Shown: piece by piece, positions 15,657 to 47,404 of the stretch
How the letters are laid out: every line of letters begins with the position of its first letter
Numbering within the stretch: position 1 is the stretch's first letter
Assembly: GCA_020348905.1 (NCBI GenBank)
Contig: CP070756.1
Coordinates: 2,612,259-2,661,833, forward strand
Direction: 5' to 3'
Length of the DNA stretch: 49,575 nucleotides
Source: Candidatus Zixiibacteriota bacterium
GTDB lineage: Bacteria; Zixibacteria; MSB-5A5; GN15; FEB-12
The notes under the pieces: generated by a model
Told to the model about the DNA's origin: nothing
The model's input: only the letters and a program-made list of their open reading frames with translations
The model's database searches: none
Position numbers and translations under genes: made by a program

Positions 15657-16355
15657 ATGAATATGGCCACGAGGATTACTGCAACTCTATTCATTTGTCT
15701 TTTGCTGGCAGGAGGCGCTCATGCCGAGGCATCCTTGCGATTCTCTATGAATCGCTTCGATCTGGGCTCGATTCCCCCTAACTCGGTTGTTTCGCATTAC
15801 TTTTGGCTCCGGTCGGCGGGAACTGACACGCTTGTGATCGAAGAGATCAAGACTGGCTGCGGGTGCACCCTTATGCCGCTGGATAAAAACTGGATCGCCC
15901 CCGGTGACAGCATGAAAGTTGACATCTGTTGGGACGTCAAGGGGAAGATTGGCGCGTCCGGGAGTTACCCTTATATATTTACCAACGCTCCGGACGGACC
16001 GAGCCGCGTTTATTTGACAGGCACGATTGTCAAATCCCCTGATTCACTCCGGCCCGTTTCCCTGAAACCTTACATTCTCGACCTTTCCCGCTTTCGCGAA
16101 ACTTCGATCGATAGTATCTCCTTCGCCATCCGCAATCACAGTGAGCAGGATATTACCCTCTCCCGGTTATCGTTCGACGTCGTCGAGTGTGAGGTGATAC
16201 TCCCGGAAATGGTGGCCGCCGGGTCGGTTGCCTATGGTCGCATTAAAGTCAAAGAAGAATTTCTCGATAAAGAATTCAAGAGATCGTTTACGCTGAAATT
16301 GAACGACCAGAAGAATTCAAGAATCACAGTTCCGGTAAGAAGGAAAATATACTGA
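15657..16355 (+). CDS. DUF1573 domain protein (Cys-Gly-Cys form), exported
   Basis: This 232-residue exported protein has a signal peptide (ITATLFICLLLAGGAHAEA) and an N-terminal DUF1573 beta-sandwich. The DUF1573 hallmarks are FDLGSIPPNSVVSHYFWLRSAG and the Cys-Gly-Cys motif TGCGCT (Cys68, Cys70), followed by PGDS. The C-terminal half is a second beta domain ending in TVPVRRK. The biochemical role of DUF1573 is not established. The downstream gene is a clear paralogue over its whole length (shared HxFWL, GCT, PLDK/PLEK, PYxLDLxxF and RITVPVRRK), but it has TGA at the Cys68 position. A GGGAGAG ribosome site lies about 13 nt upstream of the first ATG; an alternative ATG is two codons later. 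Confidence 0.88.
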   Translation: MNMATRITATLFICLLLAGGAHAEASLRFSMNRFDLGSIPPNSVVSHYFWLRSAGTDTLVIEEIKTGCGCTLMPLDKNWIAPGDSMKVDICWDVKGKIGASGSYPYIFTNAPDGPSRVYLTGTIVKSPDSLRPVSLKPYILDLSRFRETSIDSISFAIRNHSEQDITLSRLSFDVVECEVILPEMVAAGSVAYGRIKVKEEFLDKEFKRSFTLKLNDQKNSRITVPVRRKIY

Positions 16356-16401: not shown

Positions 16402-17169
16402 ATGAAGACACTCCCATTAGCGATGATGATCAGTTTGCTGCTGATGATAATGGTTGGCGCGGCTTTCGGCGGCCCGAACCTTACCATACCCGAGTCGGCT
16501 TTTGATTTCGGCTACGTTCCGCAGCACTCCAAGGTAAGCCATATTTTCTGGCTTCATTCAACCGGTGATTCGACCCTGCAGATCACCAAGATAGTGCCTG
16601 GCTGAGGCTGCACCAAGGCTCCGCTCGAAAAGAGCGAGCTCGCTGTCGGTGACAGCACCCGGTTGGAAATAATATTCAACACCGGCAAGTATAAGCGCAA
16701 GATAACCAAGAAGCCGAGGATCAACACCAACGAAGGCCCGCCTGGAAAGAACGTACAAATCTCAGCCTATATCGTTGAGCGGCCCGACTCTACCTATCCG
16801 GTGAGTATCAAGCCTTACAAACTGGACCTGACCCAGTTCGGCGAGAAGGTCAGAGACCAGGTTAAATTCAGAATCACCAATGTCTCGGACAAGAGTGTGA
16901 ATACATCAATGATCGCAACGTCAAGCGAGTATTTCGAGGTCGACCTGCCGTCTTCCGTCGGGCCGGGGGAGTCGGCCGAGGGTGTGCTTAAGCTGAAAGA
17001 GTTTGCCCTGGATAAGGAGTTCGAGAAATCATTTACGTTTGATCTCGACGACGCCCCCAAAACACGATTTACGGTACCGGTAAGACGCAAACTGCGTCCC
17101 AGTGTGCAGCAGGCCAGGGATGCGCAGAAGAATGTCGATTTGCGGGGCGACAAAAAAGGCGATGGTTGA
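16402..17169 (+). CDS. DUF1573 protein with in-frame TGA: probable selenoprotein (Sec68)
   Basis: The frame runs from the ATG at 16402 to a TGA stop at 17167-17169 and is broken only by TGA at 16603-16605. Reading that codon as selenocysteine gives 255 residues: a signal peptide (LLLMIMVGAAFG), a DUF1573 domain with HxFWLHSTGD and the motif P-G-Sec68-G-Cys70-T, and a C-terminal beta domain ending TVPVRRK. The upstream paralogue has Cys68-Gly-Cys70 at exactly this place. The 188 codons after the TGA stay open and conserved, with no start codon near the break. A hairpin at 16617-16640 fits a bacterial SECIS. The Sec/Cys pair suggests a redox or metal-binding role in the periplasm (inference). 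The main alternative is a nonsense mutation, since TGC to TGA is a single change. The spacing to the upstream gene (46 nt) suggests one operon. Confidence 0.78.
16617..16640 (+). promoter_or_regulatory. Candidate bacterial SECIS hairpin (DUF1573 gene)
   Basis: CGCTC (16622-16626) pairs with GAGCG (16632-16636) around a GAAAA loop. Below a bulged C at 16621 the stem extends by GGCT/AGCT (one G-U pair). The apical loop starts with G, 21 nt after the TGA, inside the 16-37 nt window used for bacterial SECIS models. A second perfect hairpin (GCTGTC-GGT-GACAGC, 16642-16656) lies too far away to be the first choice. Confidence 0.65.
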
Positions 17170-17241: not shown

Positions 17242-18690
17242 TCAATCTGGAACGTCAAGCACCCCCTGATCAATTTTCTCCTGCCAGTCCCGACTGTACA
17301 CCTCACCGTACACGTTCGAATGAACGAGACGATAGTCGTCGCTGCCGGACCAGTCCTCAAACACGAACACTTTCCCTTCGCCGATCGAACGGTAGTGCCA
17401 AATTTCGTAAGCATTACCTATTCGCGGCGCTTCGTTATCATCTCGCTCATCCCAGCGCCCGTAGGTGAGGTATATTCGTCCCCGGTCACTTGCCCAGCCA
17501 TTGGAACGCTCACGGTTGGTTGAGAAGATTTGATTGCTGAACCGATATCGCTCAATAAGATCGCGTCGGTTCTCTACCAGGGGCGTGGCGGGATTGATAT
17601 CGTGCTCAGCCCAGAACTGGGCCAGGTAGTTCATCTTGCCGGAGTCGGACAGGCCCGTCAATACGTGGAATTCCTCCGGAACGAGAAGATACTTGACCAT
17701 ATTGACGTGGTCCTCAATGTCCAGGTCGGCATCGTCATAGTCAACCTGATACTGAGTCGTCGCGGCGGTCAGGATGGCCTGCGGAGACACGATGTGAAAT
17801 GGTGTCAGAATGGTGTCAGATTGCCCGTTATCCAGATCAGTGGCGACCACCCTGATGTTATAAGATCCGAAGGGAAATCCAGTCACGTCGATCGACTCGG
17901 CGATGACCGCAGATTGCCCCGGTTTCGCGGTCACCCTGGAGCCCAGGTTCTGATGGACACTGTCTCTCTGGTCAAGGATAGCCAGGGACAACTGATAAGG
18001 GGTGGGGTCGTCCGGTAAATAGAGAAGGCCGTATATTTCTCCGTAAAGGTACACGACCGTGTCACCCGGAGTGAAAATCGAAACCGGATTCGGGACCACG
18101 TAAAAGCCGTTCTTGCACAGCCTCGGGTTGTACTGGGGACCACCTTCTCCGATGTATCGCACGTCGTAGGCTACCCGGGCACCACCGATTTCGAGTTTAC
18201 CATGGTGCGGGGGCTCGGCATGAACCCGCTCAAGAAAATATTCGCCTGTTCTCTTGCTGACGGCGTCGATGACAGTCAGGCGGGCCGAATAATCGCCCGG
18301 CGGCACCATCATCCTCAGGCTGTTAAACACGCGATAGTCTCTGAGATCTGCTTCCTGCTGAGAACTGACGCGCATGGAGAAATAAGTGGCCACCGAATCG
18401 ATAGCGTGACCCGTCGAATCCAGCAGATCGACCTGAGCGAAGACGCGGGCAAAGAGCCCGTTGTCAACCGTATCGGGGACAAAAAACGAAAACTCGTGGC
18501 GGTTGACCGAGAAGGGGAACTCCACCAGCACCAGCGAGTCCAGGGCCGGGTTATTGCTTACCACGACACCGGCGTAGACTGCCAGACTCTCTTCTGATTC
18601 GATGGCTGCGTCAATGGATGTGTTGAGGACGCCGACCGCTAAAATCAAGGTTGCCAGGAATCTCCCGGCCGTAATCCAAATGTGCTTCAT
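17242..18690 (-). CDS. GWxTD domain protein, exported
   Basis: The 482-residue protein has an N-terminal signal (WITAGRFLATLILAVGVLNTSIDA), a long beta-rich middle, and near the C-terminus the GWxTD-type motif NGWASDRGRIYLTYGRWDE, followed by the EIWHYRSIG and VFEDW segments seen in this family. In this copy the motif reads GWASD rather than GWKTD. The function is unknown. The domain is typical of uncultured FCB-group and Zixibacteria-like genomes and often occurs in secretion or cell-surface contexts. The ATG follows directly after the TAG stop of the second GWxTD gene, with no gap, so the two are translated as a pair. Confidence 0.85.
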   Translation of the reverse strand: MKHIWITAGRFLATLILAVGVLNTSIDAAIESEESLAVYAGVVVSNNPALDSLVLVEFPFSVNRHEFSFFVPDTVDNGLFARVFAQVDLLDSTGHAIDSVATYFSMRVSSQQEADLRDYRVFNSLRMMVPPGDYSARLTVIDAVSKRTGEYFLERVHAEPPHHGKLEIGGARVAYDVRYIGEGGPQYNPRLCKNGFYVVPNPVSIFTPGDTVVYLYGEIYGLLYLPDDPTPYQLSLAILDQRDSVHQNLGSRVTAKPGQSAVIAESIDVTGFPFGSYNIRVVATDLDNGQSDTILTPFHIVSPQAILTAATTQYQVDYDDADLDIEDHVNMVKYLLVPEEFHVLTGLSDSGKMNYLAQFWAEHDINPATPLVENRRDLIERYRFSNQIFSTNRERSNGWASDRGRIYLTYGRWDERDDNEAPRIGNAYEIWHYRSIGEGKVFVFEDWSGSDDYRLVHSNVYGEVYSRDWQEKIDQGVLDVPD

Positions 18691-20043
18691 CTAATAATCC
18701 GGTCCTAATCCCAAACCGTCGTAGGGATAAATGAGCCGAAAATCACCATCACCCGTTTCATCTATAAATACAAACTTCCGATAGCGAGCATCACGATAGT
18801 AATGCCATTCCTGATAAGGTAAGCGGTTTTCAACGAACGGATAATCCTCCACCTGATCCGGTTCACCGTAGACTATATAGACTCTCCCCCGGTCAGTTTT
18901 CCATCCCGAGGTTCTCAGGTAACCGAAATTTTCGTTGGCAACGTGAACCCGGCGGTAGAACTCTGTCTTCGTCTCGTTTTCCGGCGTACCTGGAGTCGGG
19001 TCTCTCGCCAGCCAGAAGGCGTTAAAAGCCTGCAGACGATCTTCATAGGTATCTTGCTGTTTGAGCCCTTCAATGTCGCTGGGTATGGAGATTATCGAAA
19101 GTTGCCCCACAACCGACTTGAAGTCATGAACCAGCAGCGATCGCTCCGACCATACCAGTTCAAAATACTTGGTCTTGGAGTCGATCTTCTTGTCTCGTCG
19201 CCCGACCAGCGTTACATCAAGCCTGAATTCGCCGGGTCGCAGCTCGTCCATGGATATCTCGCGGAACTCCCGCAAAACACCATTCCCCATTTGCCTCGTA
19301 AGCGAGTCACGATACAACATACCGTGAGTCGCATGGCGCAGCTTGGTATCTATCCTGATGGAATCGGATTCTGCCTTGCCCTGATAGACCTCAAAATAGA
19401 ACAGTAGCTTCAGAGCATCGGAGCTACCGTACTTATGTGACACCGATGGCACGAGCGTGAAGTCCCCCTTGTCGAACTTCGACTGCTCCTCGCCAACCGC
19501 GCTGACAGCCTGGACCAACTGGATGTCCGACAGACGAGGGCTTTTTTCAAAGCGATACTTCAGTTTCTCTTTGAACTTGCGCTCCACCAACTCATCGGAA
19601 TTGGGGTCGCTAAGAATCAGCTTGATCTCATACTTGTCTGGATCCAGCTCAAAATTGACCTGATTGGTACGGTAATCGAACCTGGATTTGGCCTTCTCGT
19701 CGGTAAGTACTCTCACCCGTTTGGTCTGCTTGAAGGAGTCAATCAGCTTATCTTTCTTACCGTAAACACTTACTGATATTTCATAATCGGCAGCATAACC
19801 GTTGCCCTGACGGTAGAAATTCAATGCCGCGTTATAGATCTGGTAGTAGACCTCGAGGCGGATTTTGCCGGGAGTAGCCGAATTGAAGGCCGCATGGTCG
19901 ACCAGGAAAAACCTGTCCGCCGAACCTCTGCCCAAAAGGTCAAACTTCGAACCTGCGGGCACAGACCCGGCCAGAGTGACTGTCAGGGCTGCAATAATGA
20001 TGAGAACCGGTAAACGCTTCATCTTATATATATTAACGTCCAT
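18691..20043 (-). CDS. GWxTD domain protein, exported
   Basis: The 450-residue protein has a signal peptide starting at MKRLPVLIIIAALTVTLAG; the Met at codon 8 (20022) is the more natural start, and neither start has a good ribosome site. The C-terminal domain carries the canonical motif SGWKTDRGRVYIVYGEPDQVE, followed by YQEWHYY and KFVFIDETGDGDFRLIYP. The upstream region is beta-rich, with a DPTPGTPENETKTEFYRRV segment that usually precedes this motif. It is the first gene of a two-gene unit with the shorter-motif paralogue. The biochemical role is unknown. Confidence 0.87.
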   Translation of the reverse strand: MDVNIYKMKRLPVLIIIAALTVTLAGSVPAGSKFDLLGRGSADRFFLVDHAAFNSATPGKIRLEVYYQIYNAALNFYRQGNGYAADYEISVSVYGKKDKLIDSFKQTKRVRVLTDEKAKSRFDYRTNQVNFELDPDKYEIKLILSDPNSDELVERKFKEKLKYRFEKSPRLSDIQLVQAVSAVGEEQSKFDKGDFTLVPSVSHKYGSSDALKLLFYFEVYQGKAESDSIRIDTKLRHATHGMLYRDSLTRQMGNGVLREFREISMDELRPGEFRLDVTLVGRRDKKIDSKTKYFELVWSERSLLVHDFKSVVGQLSIISIPSDIEGLKQQDTYEDRLQAFNAFWLARDPTPGTPENETKTEFYRRVHVANENFGYLRTSGWKTDRGRVYIVYGEPDQVEDYPFVENRLPYQEWHYYRDARYRKFVFIDETGDGDFRLIYPYDGLGLGPDY

Positions 20044-36585: not shown

Positions 36586-37572
36586 ATGCGCGTTCACGAG
36601 TCAATATTGGAACTCATCGGCCATACGCCGCTGCTGCGGTTGAAAACAGGAATACCCCCCGATGGCCCGGCCGCCTATGTCAAACTTGAGTTCTGCAACC
36701 CCACCGGTTCACTCAAGGACAGAATCACCTACTACATATTGAAGAAGGCCATGGATGAGGGTCGTCTTAAACCGGGCGATACCGTCATCGACAATACCTC
36801 CGGCAACACCGGTTCCGCATTAGCTATGGTGGCCTCGGTGATGGGACTGAAGTCTATCGTCACAACACCCGAGAAAACCAGTAAAGAGAAAATCGATCTT
36901 ATCAAGTCATATGGTGCAGAAGTCATAATTACACCCGAAGTCGAAGATCATGATGATCCCGAGGGGTTTTTTATGGTCGCCCGGCGGCTCGCCGAAGAAA
37001 ACGGGTACTTTGACCTCAACCAGTATCATAATCAGGATAATGTCGAAGCACATTATATAAGCACCGGTCCGGAGATCTGGGAGGACACCGGTGGCCGCAT
37101 CACCCACTTCGTATGCGGAATTGGCACCGGTGGCTGCTTCTCCGGTGCGGCCCGCTTTTTAAAAGAAAAGAATCGCGACGTACAAAATATCGCGGTTGAC
37201 CCTGAAGGGTCGATATTCGCCGAATACATCAGGCATAACCGCGAAATCAAAGGTTATGCTTACAAGGTGGAAGGGATCGGCTCCGATGTTGTCACCGGGG
37301 CGCTGCACCCGCATCTGGTCGACGAGGTCATCACCGTTTCGGACAAGGATTCATTCAACCGGGCTCGACTGATTGCCCGAACAGAGGGCATTTCGGGCGG
37401 GGGTTCATCCGGCGCGGTCGCCTTTGCCATGGAAAAGATTGCCGCCAACCTGGGGCCGGAAGCTCTGATAGTCGGTATATTTGCCGACGCCGGCATTAGG
37501 TATCTGAGTAAGTGTTACAATGACAACTGGATGCGGCAGCATGGCTATCTGCCGGAAGTGGAGGTTAATTGA
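36586..37572 (+). CDS. Cysteine synthase-type PLP enzyme
   Basis: The 328-residue fold-type II PLP enzyme of the CysK/CysM/CBS group probably makes cysteine from O-acetylserine and sulfide. Lys44 in NPTGSLKDR is the PLP Schiff-base residue, NTSGNTGSALAM binds substrate/PLP phosphate, and GTGGCFSGAARFL is the phosphate loop. The C-terminal SGGGSSGAVAF motif is also present. GAAGGGA lies 6 nt before the ATG. The stop overlaps the possible TTG start of the DUF1573 gene, so the two are coupled. Exact specificity (CysK, CysM or beta-synthase) is not settled. Confidence 0.9.
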   Translation: MRVHESILELIGHTPLLRLKTGIPPDGPAAYVKLEFCNPTGSLKDRITYYILKKAMDEGRLKPGDTVIDNTSGNTGSALAMVASVMGLKSIVTTPEKTSKEKIDLIKSYGAEVIITPEVEDHDDPEGFFMVARRLAEENGYFDLNQYHNQDNVEAHYISTGPEIWEDTGGRITHFVCGIGTGGCFSGAARFLKEKNRDVQNIAVDPEGSIFAEYIRHNREIKGYAYKVEGIGSDVVTGALHPHLVDEVITVSDKDSFNRARLIARTEGISGGGSSGAVAFAMEKIAANLGPEALIVGIFADAGIRYLSKCYNDNWMRQHGYLPEVEVN

Positions 37573-37577
37573 CAGTA

Positions 37578-38258
37578 ATGAGAAAGTCACTTATCACATC
37601 AGTTGCTATCGTGGTGATGGCTCTCAGTGTGCCTTTACAGGGCGAAGACTTTGAATGGGAAGCGTATGATTTCGGGCATGTGGCCATCGACTTTGACATC
37701 TTTCATACCTACGCCTACGTTAACAATACCGATCGTCCGCTAAAGATTCTTGAGGCTGAAGCCAACTGTGATTGTACCACCATCCGTCTACTCGACTCGC
37801 TGCTCGATCCCGGCGATACCGCCTTTATTGAATTGACTTTCAATACCCGGGACTACTACGGCCCGACCTCCAAGTCGTTCACTGTGGTGACTGATAACAC
37901 GGAACTGCCCAAGATGAAGTACTTTTACCTGTCGACCATAGGCCAGTGGTTTCACGGGATGAAGCCAAACCCAATGTCGCTTTTCTTCTTACCGGGAAAG
38001 AAGAGCCAGAAGGTTTTGATCCCCAACAGAGCCTTTGACCGGATCAGGATCAATCAGGTGGAACAGTACGACAGCACCTTTGTCGTCAAAGCAGCAATTG
38101 AATCGGCAGACAAGAGCGATTTCCTCGTGTTGGAGGTCAGCCCGGCTGACAATTTGTCCAAGGGCACGTTTCTAAGCAGCTTCACTGTCGAAATCGAGCT
38201 GGCGGGAGAAGAGAAACCGGCAGTTTTGACCTTTCCGGTCAAGATCGTTAGATACTGA
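37578..38258 (+). CDS. DUF1573 domain protein (Cys-Asp-Cys form), exported
   Basis: The roughly 226-residue exported protein has a signal peptide (LITSVAIVVMALSVPLQG) and a DUF1573 domain: YDFGHVAIDFDIFHTYAYVNNTDRPLKI, then NCDCTT (Cys64-Asp-Cys66) and PGDTAFIELTFNTRD. The C-terminal half is a second beta domain. It is the third DUF1573 protein in the window and keeps both cysteines, unlike the selenocysteine copy. The start is either ATG 37578 or TTG 37569; GGAGG lies 4 nt before the TTG, which overlaps the cysteine synthase stop, so re-initiation is plausible. The role is unknown, but the pairing with a cysteine synthase hints at sulfur or thiol chemistry (inference). Confidence 0.85.
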   Translation: MRKSLITSVAIVVMALSVPLQGEDFEWEAYDFGHVAIDFDIFHTYAYVNNTDRPLKILEAEANCDCTTIRLLDSLLDPGDTAFIELTFNTRDYYGPTSKSFTVVTDNTELPKMKYFYLSTIGQWFHGMKPNPMSLFFLPGKKSQKVLIPNRAFDRIRINQVEQYDSTFVVKAAIESADKSDFLVLEVSPADNLSKGTFLSSFTVEIELAGEEKPAVLTFPVKIVRY

Positions 38259-47080: not shown

Positions 47081-47404
47081 ATGTTCGAAGTCACCGATTT
47101 AGCCAAAGATGAGCTTACCAGGGTACTGGCCTCTGAAACCGCCCGCAACAAGCAACTGGTGATTTACTTTCGAGGCTTTGGTTGAAGCGGCCCGTCGCTG
47201 GGACTGGCTCTGGAAGAGTCAACAGAAGGTCTGGAAAAAATCGAATCCAACGGCATCACGGCATGGCTCGACAGCAAGTTGAAGGCCATGCTTGATGGGC
47301 TCGGAAAACTGTCCATTGACTACACGCGGGATGCCAGCGGAAAGGCGGGATATTTGCTGACTACGGGCGACGGTGACTGCTCCAATGGCTGCAGCAGTTG
47401 TTAA
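47081..47404 (+). CDS. HesB/IscA-like selenoprotein (Sec35)
   Basis: Reading the TGA at 47183-47185 as selenocysteine gives 107 residues: MFEVTDLAKDELTRVLASET, then IYFRGFG-Sec35-SGPSLGLALEE, a middle domain, and a C-terminal DCSNGCSSC. IscA/HesB-like proteins have GxGCxG at this position, and HesB-like selenoproteins with Sec at the first ligand are known, so this is a good match. The tail cysteines C-x3-C-x2-C would complete a metal or Fe-S site. A SECIS-like hairpin sits at 47205-47221. No ribosome site beyond a weak TAGGAAAG is seen. The gene is short, sits alone between divergent operons, and would be missed by a standard gene caller. Confidence 0.82.
47205..47221 (+). promoter_or_regulatory. 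Candidate bacterial SECIS hairpin (HesB-like gene)
   Basis: TGGCTCT pairs with AGAGTCA over 7 bp (one G-U) around a GGA loop. The loop starts with G, 26 nt after the TGA, inside the bacterial SECIS window. Confidence 0.6.

Follow-up and report, generated by a model that had tools for sequence, protein, structure and literature searches.

Selenoproteins with a DUF1573 domain are already on record. OS_HP2 (pfam07610, motif UxC) is tabulated as a selenoprotein in PMC2398784 (2008), and DUF1573 with the motif UGC appears in the tables of PMC9312934 (2022), which credits a 2007 study (its ref. 63), and of PMC13188914 (2026); NCBIfam, too, holds a model for the family, NF041425 'OS_HP2 family (seleno)protein'. 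For the bacterial SECIS element (bSECIS), PMC13188914 presents a model with a loop of 3-9 nt, an upper stem of 4-16 bp, G in the first two loop positions, a distance of 16-37 nt from UGA to loop and a minimum free energy (MFE) of at most -7.5 kcal/mol, and the same review points out SECIS elements that depart from the consensus and possibly form classes of their own. Our literature search found no description of Zixibacteria selenoproteins or of a two-hairpin element.

In the present study, we analysed a stretch of 49,575 nt (the window) from a Candidatus Zixiibacteriota bacterium, in which a gene at 16402..17169 (+ strand) runs for 255 codons to a terminal TGA and contains a sole in-frame TGA, at 16603-16605 (+), in codon 68. 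Translated with this TGA as U, its product carries the motif P-G-Sec-G-Cys-T and a hydrophobic, signal-like N-terminal segment, and it matches Pfam DUF1573 (PF07610) with E = 7.9e-21 and 74.4 bits (cut-off 26.1), the match spanning the TGA and placing residue 68 inside the domain. The protein thus shows the two features of the OS_HP2 / DUF1573 selenoproteins, a DUF1573 domain scoring above the Pfam cut-off and Sec for the first Cys of CGC (UGC/UxC). NF041425 is its top NCBIfam match, at 62.6 bits against a curated cut-off of 100 that it does not reach, and we therefore class the gene as a DUF1573 selenoprotein and not as a member of NF041425. A sequence-only reading of this DNA had taken the family to be new, which has to be given up in view of PMC2398784, PMC9312934, PMC13188914 and NF041425; on the other hand, it was right that an in-frame TGA stands in place of the first Cys of the DUF1573 CGC motif in an otherwise intact frame, and that the paralogue directly upstream has Cys at the same residue number. 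What we describe is a further DUF1573 selenoprotein of a known family whose SECIS form is new, the accessible parts of the cited works describing no two-hairpin SECIS for OS_HP2.

The upstream paralogue (15657..16355, +; DUF1573 E 4.1e-19) reads Cys68-Gly-Cys70, and many relatives likewise have a DUF1573 gene upstream of the Sec gene, there often with CTC, CSC or CVC. The window contains one more DUF1573 gene, its third and a distant one (37569..38258, +; DUF1573 E 1.6e-15), which has Cys-Asp-Cys by alignment. In an alignment of 40 sequences, including both of these Cys paralogues, residue 68 and Cys70 were invariant. A search of 60 relatives at the protein level returned homologues in all of them, many with exactly one TGA, and bore out the expected TGA/TGC alternation at a single column: codon 68 was TGA (PG-U-GC) in all 50 distinct Sec orthologues, drawn from four families, and TGC or TGT in 13 related Cys copies from the order. 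At 16609-16611, two codons beyond the UGA, Cys is encoded by TGC in 49 of the 50 Sec genes as against about half of the Cys copies, a bias for which pairing or decoding may be the reason.

The genome also proved to encode the machinery that such a reading presupposes. It holds a tRNA-Sec with anticodon UCA (68.4 bits), a selA (516 bits) adjoining selB (329 bits), and at least most of selD, the match covering positions 82-309 only and beginning beside a masked run of N (L255). In nearly all relatives the SelD gene itself has one TGA; this TGA lies at the start of their selD, and the matching stretch of L255 is the masked run. SelA scored above its cut-off in 55 of the 61 genomes searched. That TGA 16603-16605 is a nonsense mutation, a sequencing error or the mark of a decaying pseudogene might be thought of for a single 3.27-Mb contig of just 80.65% estimated completeness, yet the same TGA recurs in the 50 orthologues, whose genomes and assemblies are separate, the Sec machinery is present, and substitutions are purifying both 5' and 3' of the TGA (with synonymous distances near saturation). 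Reassignment of UGA to another amino acid, e.g., Trp or Gly, has the in-frame TGA as its sole hint, and it conflicts with the Cys that relatives have at the aligned residue, with TGA terminating both the upstream gene and the Sec-DUF1573 gene itself, and with the identity of the UCA-anticodon tRNA as tRNA-Sec. Because of the TGA and invariant residue shared among orthologues and the purifying substitutions, we regard both alternatives as untenable, with a negligible chance for either, and read TGA 16603-16605 as almost certainly Sec from these comparative sequence data.

A gap-free alignment of the 50 Sec genes from the UGA to nt 60 showed two consecutive hairpins. The proximal one (hairpin 1; 16617..16640, +), which contains the GAAAA loop in this gene, has a conserved, covarying stem and a variable loop; nt 15-21 pair with nt 32-38 in 84% of cells. 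All 28 double-change cells counted over the two hairpins fell in hairpin 1, where shuffling led us to expect 12.1 and gave as high a count in 0 of 500 trials, and the signal was gone when the pairing partners were slid as a control. For example, nt 18, a synonymous site at the end of an Ala codon, varies U/G/A in step with A/C/U at nt 35. In the 13 Cys copies the covariation of hairpin 1 was not above the control. The GAAAA hairpin had been put forward earlier as the SECIS, and it does exist, its loop beginning 21 nt after the TGA on a 5-bp upper stem in agreement with the published loop rule; however, a loop that satisfies this rule at 16-37 nt from the UGA was found in only 16 of the 50 Sec orthologues, this gene included, so that the G-bearing loop is not conserved and the hairpin makes up only part of the signal.

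The distal hairpin (hairpin 2; 16642..16656, +), which comes directly behind hairpin 1 and had escaped the sequence-only reading, reads GCUGUC-GGU-GACAGC, with its triloop at 16648-16650. In the form GCUGUC-GGY-GACAGC (nt 40-54) it was present in 50/50 Sec genes, the triloop always 42 nt after the UGA, and in 2 of the 13 Cys copies, one of which seems to have changed from TGA to TGC recently. Across the five codons of hairpin 2, third positions were 82-100% one base in the Sec genes, three of them at 100%, as compared with 38-54% for codons one to three of this set in the Cys copies; the six pairs of the hairpin hardly vary, and hence they testify to constraint and not to covariation. Like the consensus bSECIS of PMC13188914, hairpin 2 is a stem with a small apical loop of G then G/U, located within the coding region 3' of the UGA; unlike it, the Zixibacteriota element places its loop invariably at 42 nt instead of 16-37 nt, with a separate conserved hairpin in between. 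In this gene hairpin 1 obeys the loop rule within the published range; hairpin 2, with its 6 bp and GGU triloop, accords with the loop and stem rule and falls outside the distance range. By itself hairpin 2 came to -6.8 kcal/mol, short of the published MFE limit of -7.5, and the whole 64-nt stretch to -24.9.

Comparison with synonymous-codon nulls gave a mean z of -3.2 for hairpin 1 and -4.3 for hairpin 2 in Sec sequences (n=106) and of -0.2 for each in the Cys copies; of these 106, 50 came from the protein search and 56 from a pattern that required hairpin 2, so that for hairpin 2 only the former 50 are unbiased. The same test also recovered the SelD SECIS and a GG hairpin of the HesB-like gene described below, and it was flat in control stretches. 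Both hairpins are under selection as RNA, and both signatures are lost in most Cys copies. RNAalifold on the 50 sequences recovered hairpin 2 and did not recover hairpin 1, and single-sequence folding (z -1.1 to -2.4) was not decisive because of competing alternative pairings. One of these, an outer stem of nt 5-12 with nt 46-54, pairs in 86.8% of cells and counts as a competitor; we set it aside since the invariant nt 40-45 would have no partner in it and thus no explanation. A role of hairpin 2 as a genome-wide signal was likewise dismissed: the exact 15-mer occurs just once in the genome, and among 19 near matches examined there, none stood at the equivalent distance from an in-frame TGA, which assigns hairpin 2 to the Sec-DUF1573 gene here.

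Among relatives, the orthologue of a sister species that retains SelA (L011 of G002) has TGC at the Sec codon with GCUGUCGGUGACAGC still present downstream; it thus seems to have gone from Sec to Cys recently and to retain a fossil SECIS. Conversely, two divergent Sec paralogues (L256, L257) are without hairpin 2 and have a canonical GG-loop hairpin at 19-20 nt after the UGA. On this evidence hairpin 1 may derive from a canonical SECIS whose loop G disappeared after hairpin 2 had assumed the role, presumably in that order.

The TGA-plus-distal-hairpin pattern was found in 95 of 132 Zixibacteriota genomes, in two or three copies in some of them, and the reversed control pattern in 0; together with the codon shared by the 50 orthologues, this puts the observation well beyond coincidence. 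A scan for TGA plus the distal hairpin with a free gap of 16-46, run over the genomes of 84,980 named species, returned 93 stretches; among those judged real the span is 53 nt throughout, and nearly every one comes under a title of Zixiibacteriota, Zixibacteria, GN15 or unnamed bacterium MAGs. The pattern also matched in Streptomyces, Pseudomonas, Microvirga and a Clostridiales MAG, with spans of 42-64 nt instead of 53, and these matches were set aside as chance. By these sequence scans, then, the two-hairpin pattern is restricted to Zixibacteriota, chance hits aside.

The second selenoprotein suspected 30 kb away turned out to be real as well. A HesB/IscA-like gene at 47081..47404 (+), with its TGA at 47183-47185, is matched by NF038090 IscA_HesB_Se (E 1.9e-13, below its cut-off) and TIGR01911 HesB_rel_seleno, and the HesB-like genes of relatives also have one TGA. 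The SECIS hairpin of this gene (47205..47221, +), with GG in its apical loop, is paired in 21-22 of 22 sequences at every position and has a mean z of -4.4 against synonymous nulls. Here too, two hairpins come one after the other behind the UGA (nt 9-21 and 23-39), of which the second, with the GG loop, is clearly RNA-selected; the first was not significant by the synonymous-null test. G-bearing triloops like that of hairpin 2 also cap the HesB and SelD hairpins. The HesB-like selenoproteins thus resemble the Sec-DUF1573 system in having a Sec gene in the same genomes and a GG apical loop, and they differ in belonging to an unrelated protein family and in a GG loop about 26 nt from the UGA, within the published range. 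In one family (f2), the HesB-like Sec gene lies directly downstream of Sec-DUF1573 on the same strand (G037, G040, G051, G053), with variants in which it follows one Cys copy (G043) or stands beside a DUF1573 copy without TGA (G046); in genomes of another family (f1, e.g., G001, G002, G010) some 28-31 kb separate the two genes, as is the case here. The adjacency in f2 hints at a shared pathway or joint function of the two selenoproteins.

Taken as a whole, we put at about three in four the probability that the product of this gene is a DUF1573 (OS_HP2-type) selenoprotein that is exported and whose Sec is directed by the GGY hairpin 42 nt downstream, with hairpin 1 as a spacer. The ribosome would insert Sec at UGA 16603, and the most likely binding site of SelB with its Sec-tRNA is the invariant GGY triloop of hairpin 2; the 24-nt hairpin 1, folding in between, would reduce the distance to about 18 nt, similar to the 19-20 nt of single canonical hairpins, and is perhaps a spacer in this sense. 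The principal competitor is that hairpin 1 alone is the SECIS, hairpin 2 being constrained by something else, be it protein sequence, translation rate or a regulator's site. The strong RNA-level selection on hairpin 1 would suit this, as would the paralogues without hairpin 2, which evidently manage with a hairpin at the place of hairpin 1; moreover, its 5-bp upper stem and GAAAA loop 21 nt after the UGA agree with the loop rule, so that in this window's gene it could serve by itself. Nevertheless, the G with which a small loop has to begin occurs in 16/50 orthologues as against 50/50 for the GG-triloop hairpin 2, and constraint on the protein leaves unexplained both the fixed third positions and a residue that is Val in the Sec genes and Pro in most Cys copies, a difference that fits a need for GUC in hairpin 2. 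We thus consider insertion by hairpin 1 alone unlikely, and we lean, with less assurance than for the reading through the GGY hairpin as such, toward a bipartite SECIS that forms a bacterial class of its own in Zixibacteriota Sec-DUF1573 genes, in which a distal GGY hairpin would bind SelB and a covarying folded spacer would have taken the place of an ancestral canonical hairpin, the G of its loop being lost afterwards.

As for what the Sec residue does, the AlphaFold model of the protein (mean pLDDT 93) shows a helix at the N-terminus and a body rich in beta structure, which we read as two Ig-like domains; we infer from the sequence that the protein is exported. A fold search with this model against solved structures gave HYDIN/CEP192-type Ig-like domains at low TM-scores and an uncharacterised Porphyromonas protein (2qsv), with no enzyme fold among the matches; a PDB sequence search with the protein gave no match, and a literature search on DUF1573 function yielded nothing useful. 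On balance we favour, at roughly even odds, a Sec-Gly-Cys selenenylsulfide redox pair on the Ig-like scaffold, while noting that redox chemistry is proven by neither structure nor neighbours, the solved-structure matches being non-enzymatic Ig-like domains. A competing idea, which concerns the chemistry and not Sec insertion, is that the site serves as a ligand for a metal or metalloid (e.g., Cu, Hg or As). For it speak a CxC carried by an Ig-like scaffold that is predicted to be exported and has no enzyme fold and, in one family, the neighbouring gene for an Fe-S-type HesB-like selenoprotein; against it, no metal operon was identified beside the Sec-DUF1573 gene, and we hold the ligand role to be possible and the less probable of the two. 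Two GWxTD-domain genes (17242-20043, - strand) are convergent to the Sec-DUF1573 gene; such convergent downstream genes occur in 37 of 39 neighbourhoods, with an ABC-transporter cluster next in many.

With more than 90 genomes carrying a position-fixed element, these Zixibacteriota genes form a natural data set of unusual clarity on bacterial SECIS requirements, spanning Cys copies minus the element, an apparently recent Sec-to-Cys conversion retaining it and paralogues that have the canonical form. Furthermore, our results suggest that a distance rule of 16-37 nt would miss real selenoprotein genes with an intervening hairpin, which affects selenoprotein finding. Additionally, the RNA signal here dictates residues of the protein itself, as seen in the Val of the Sec genes.
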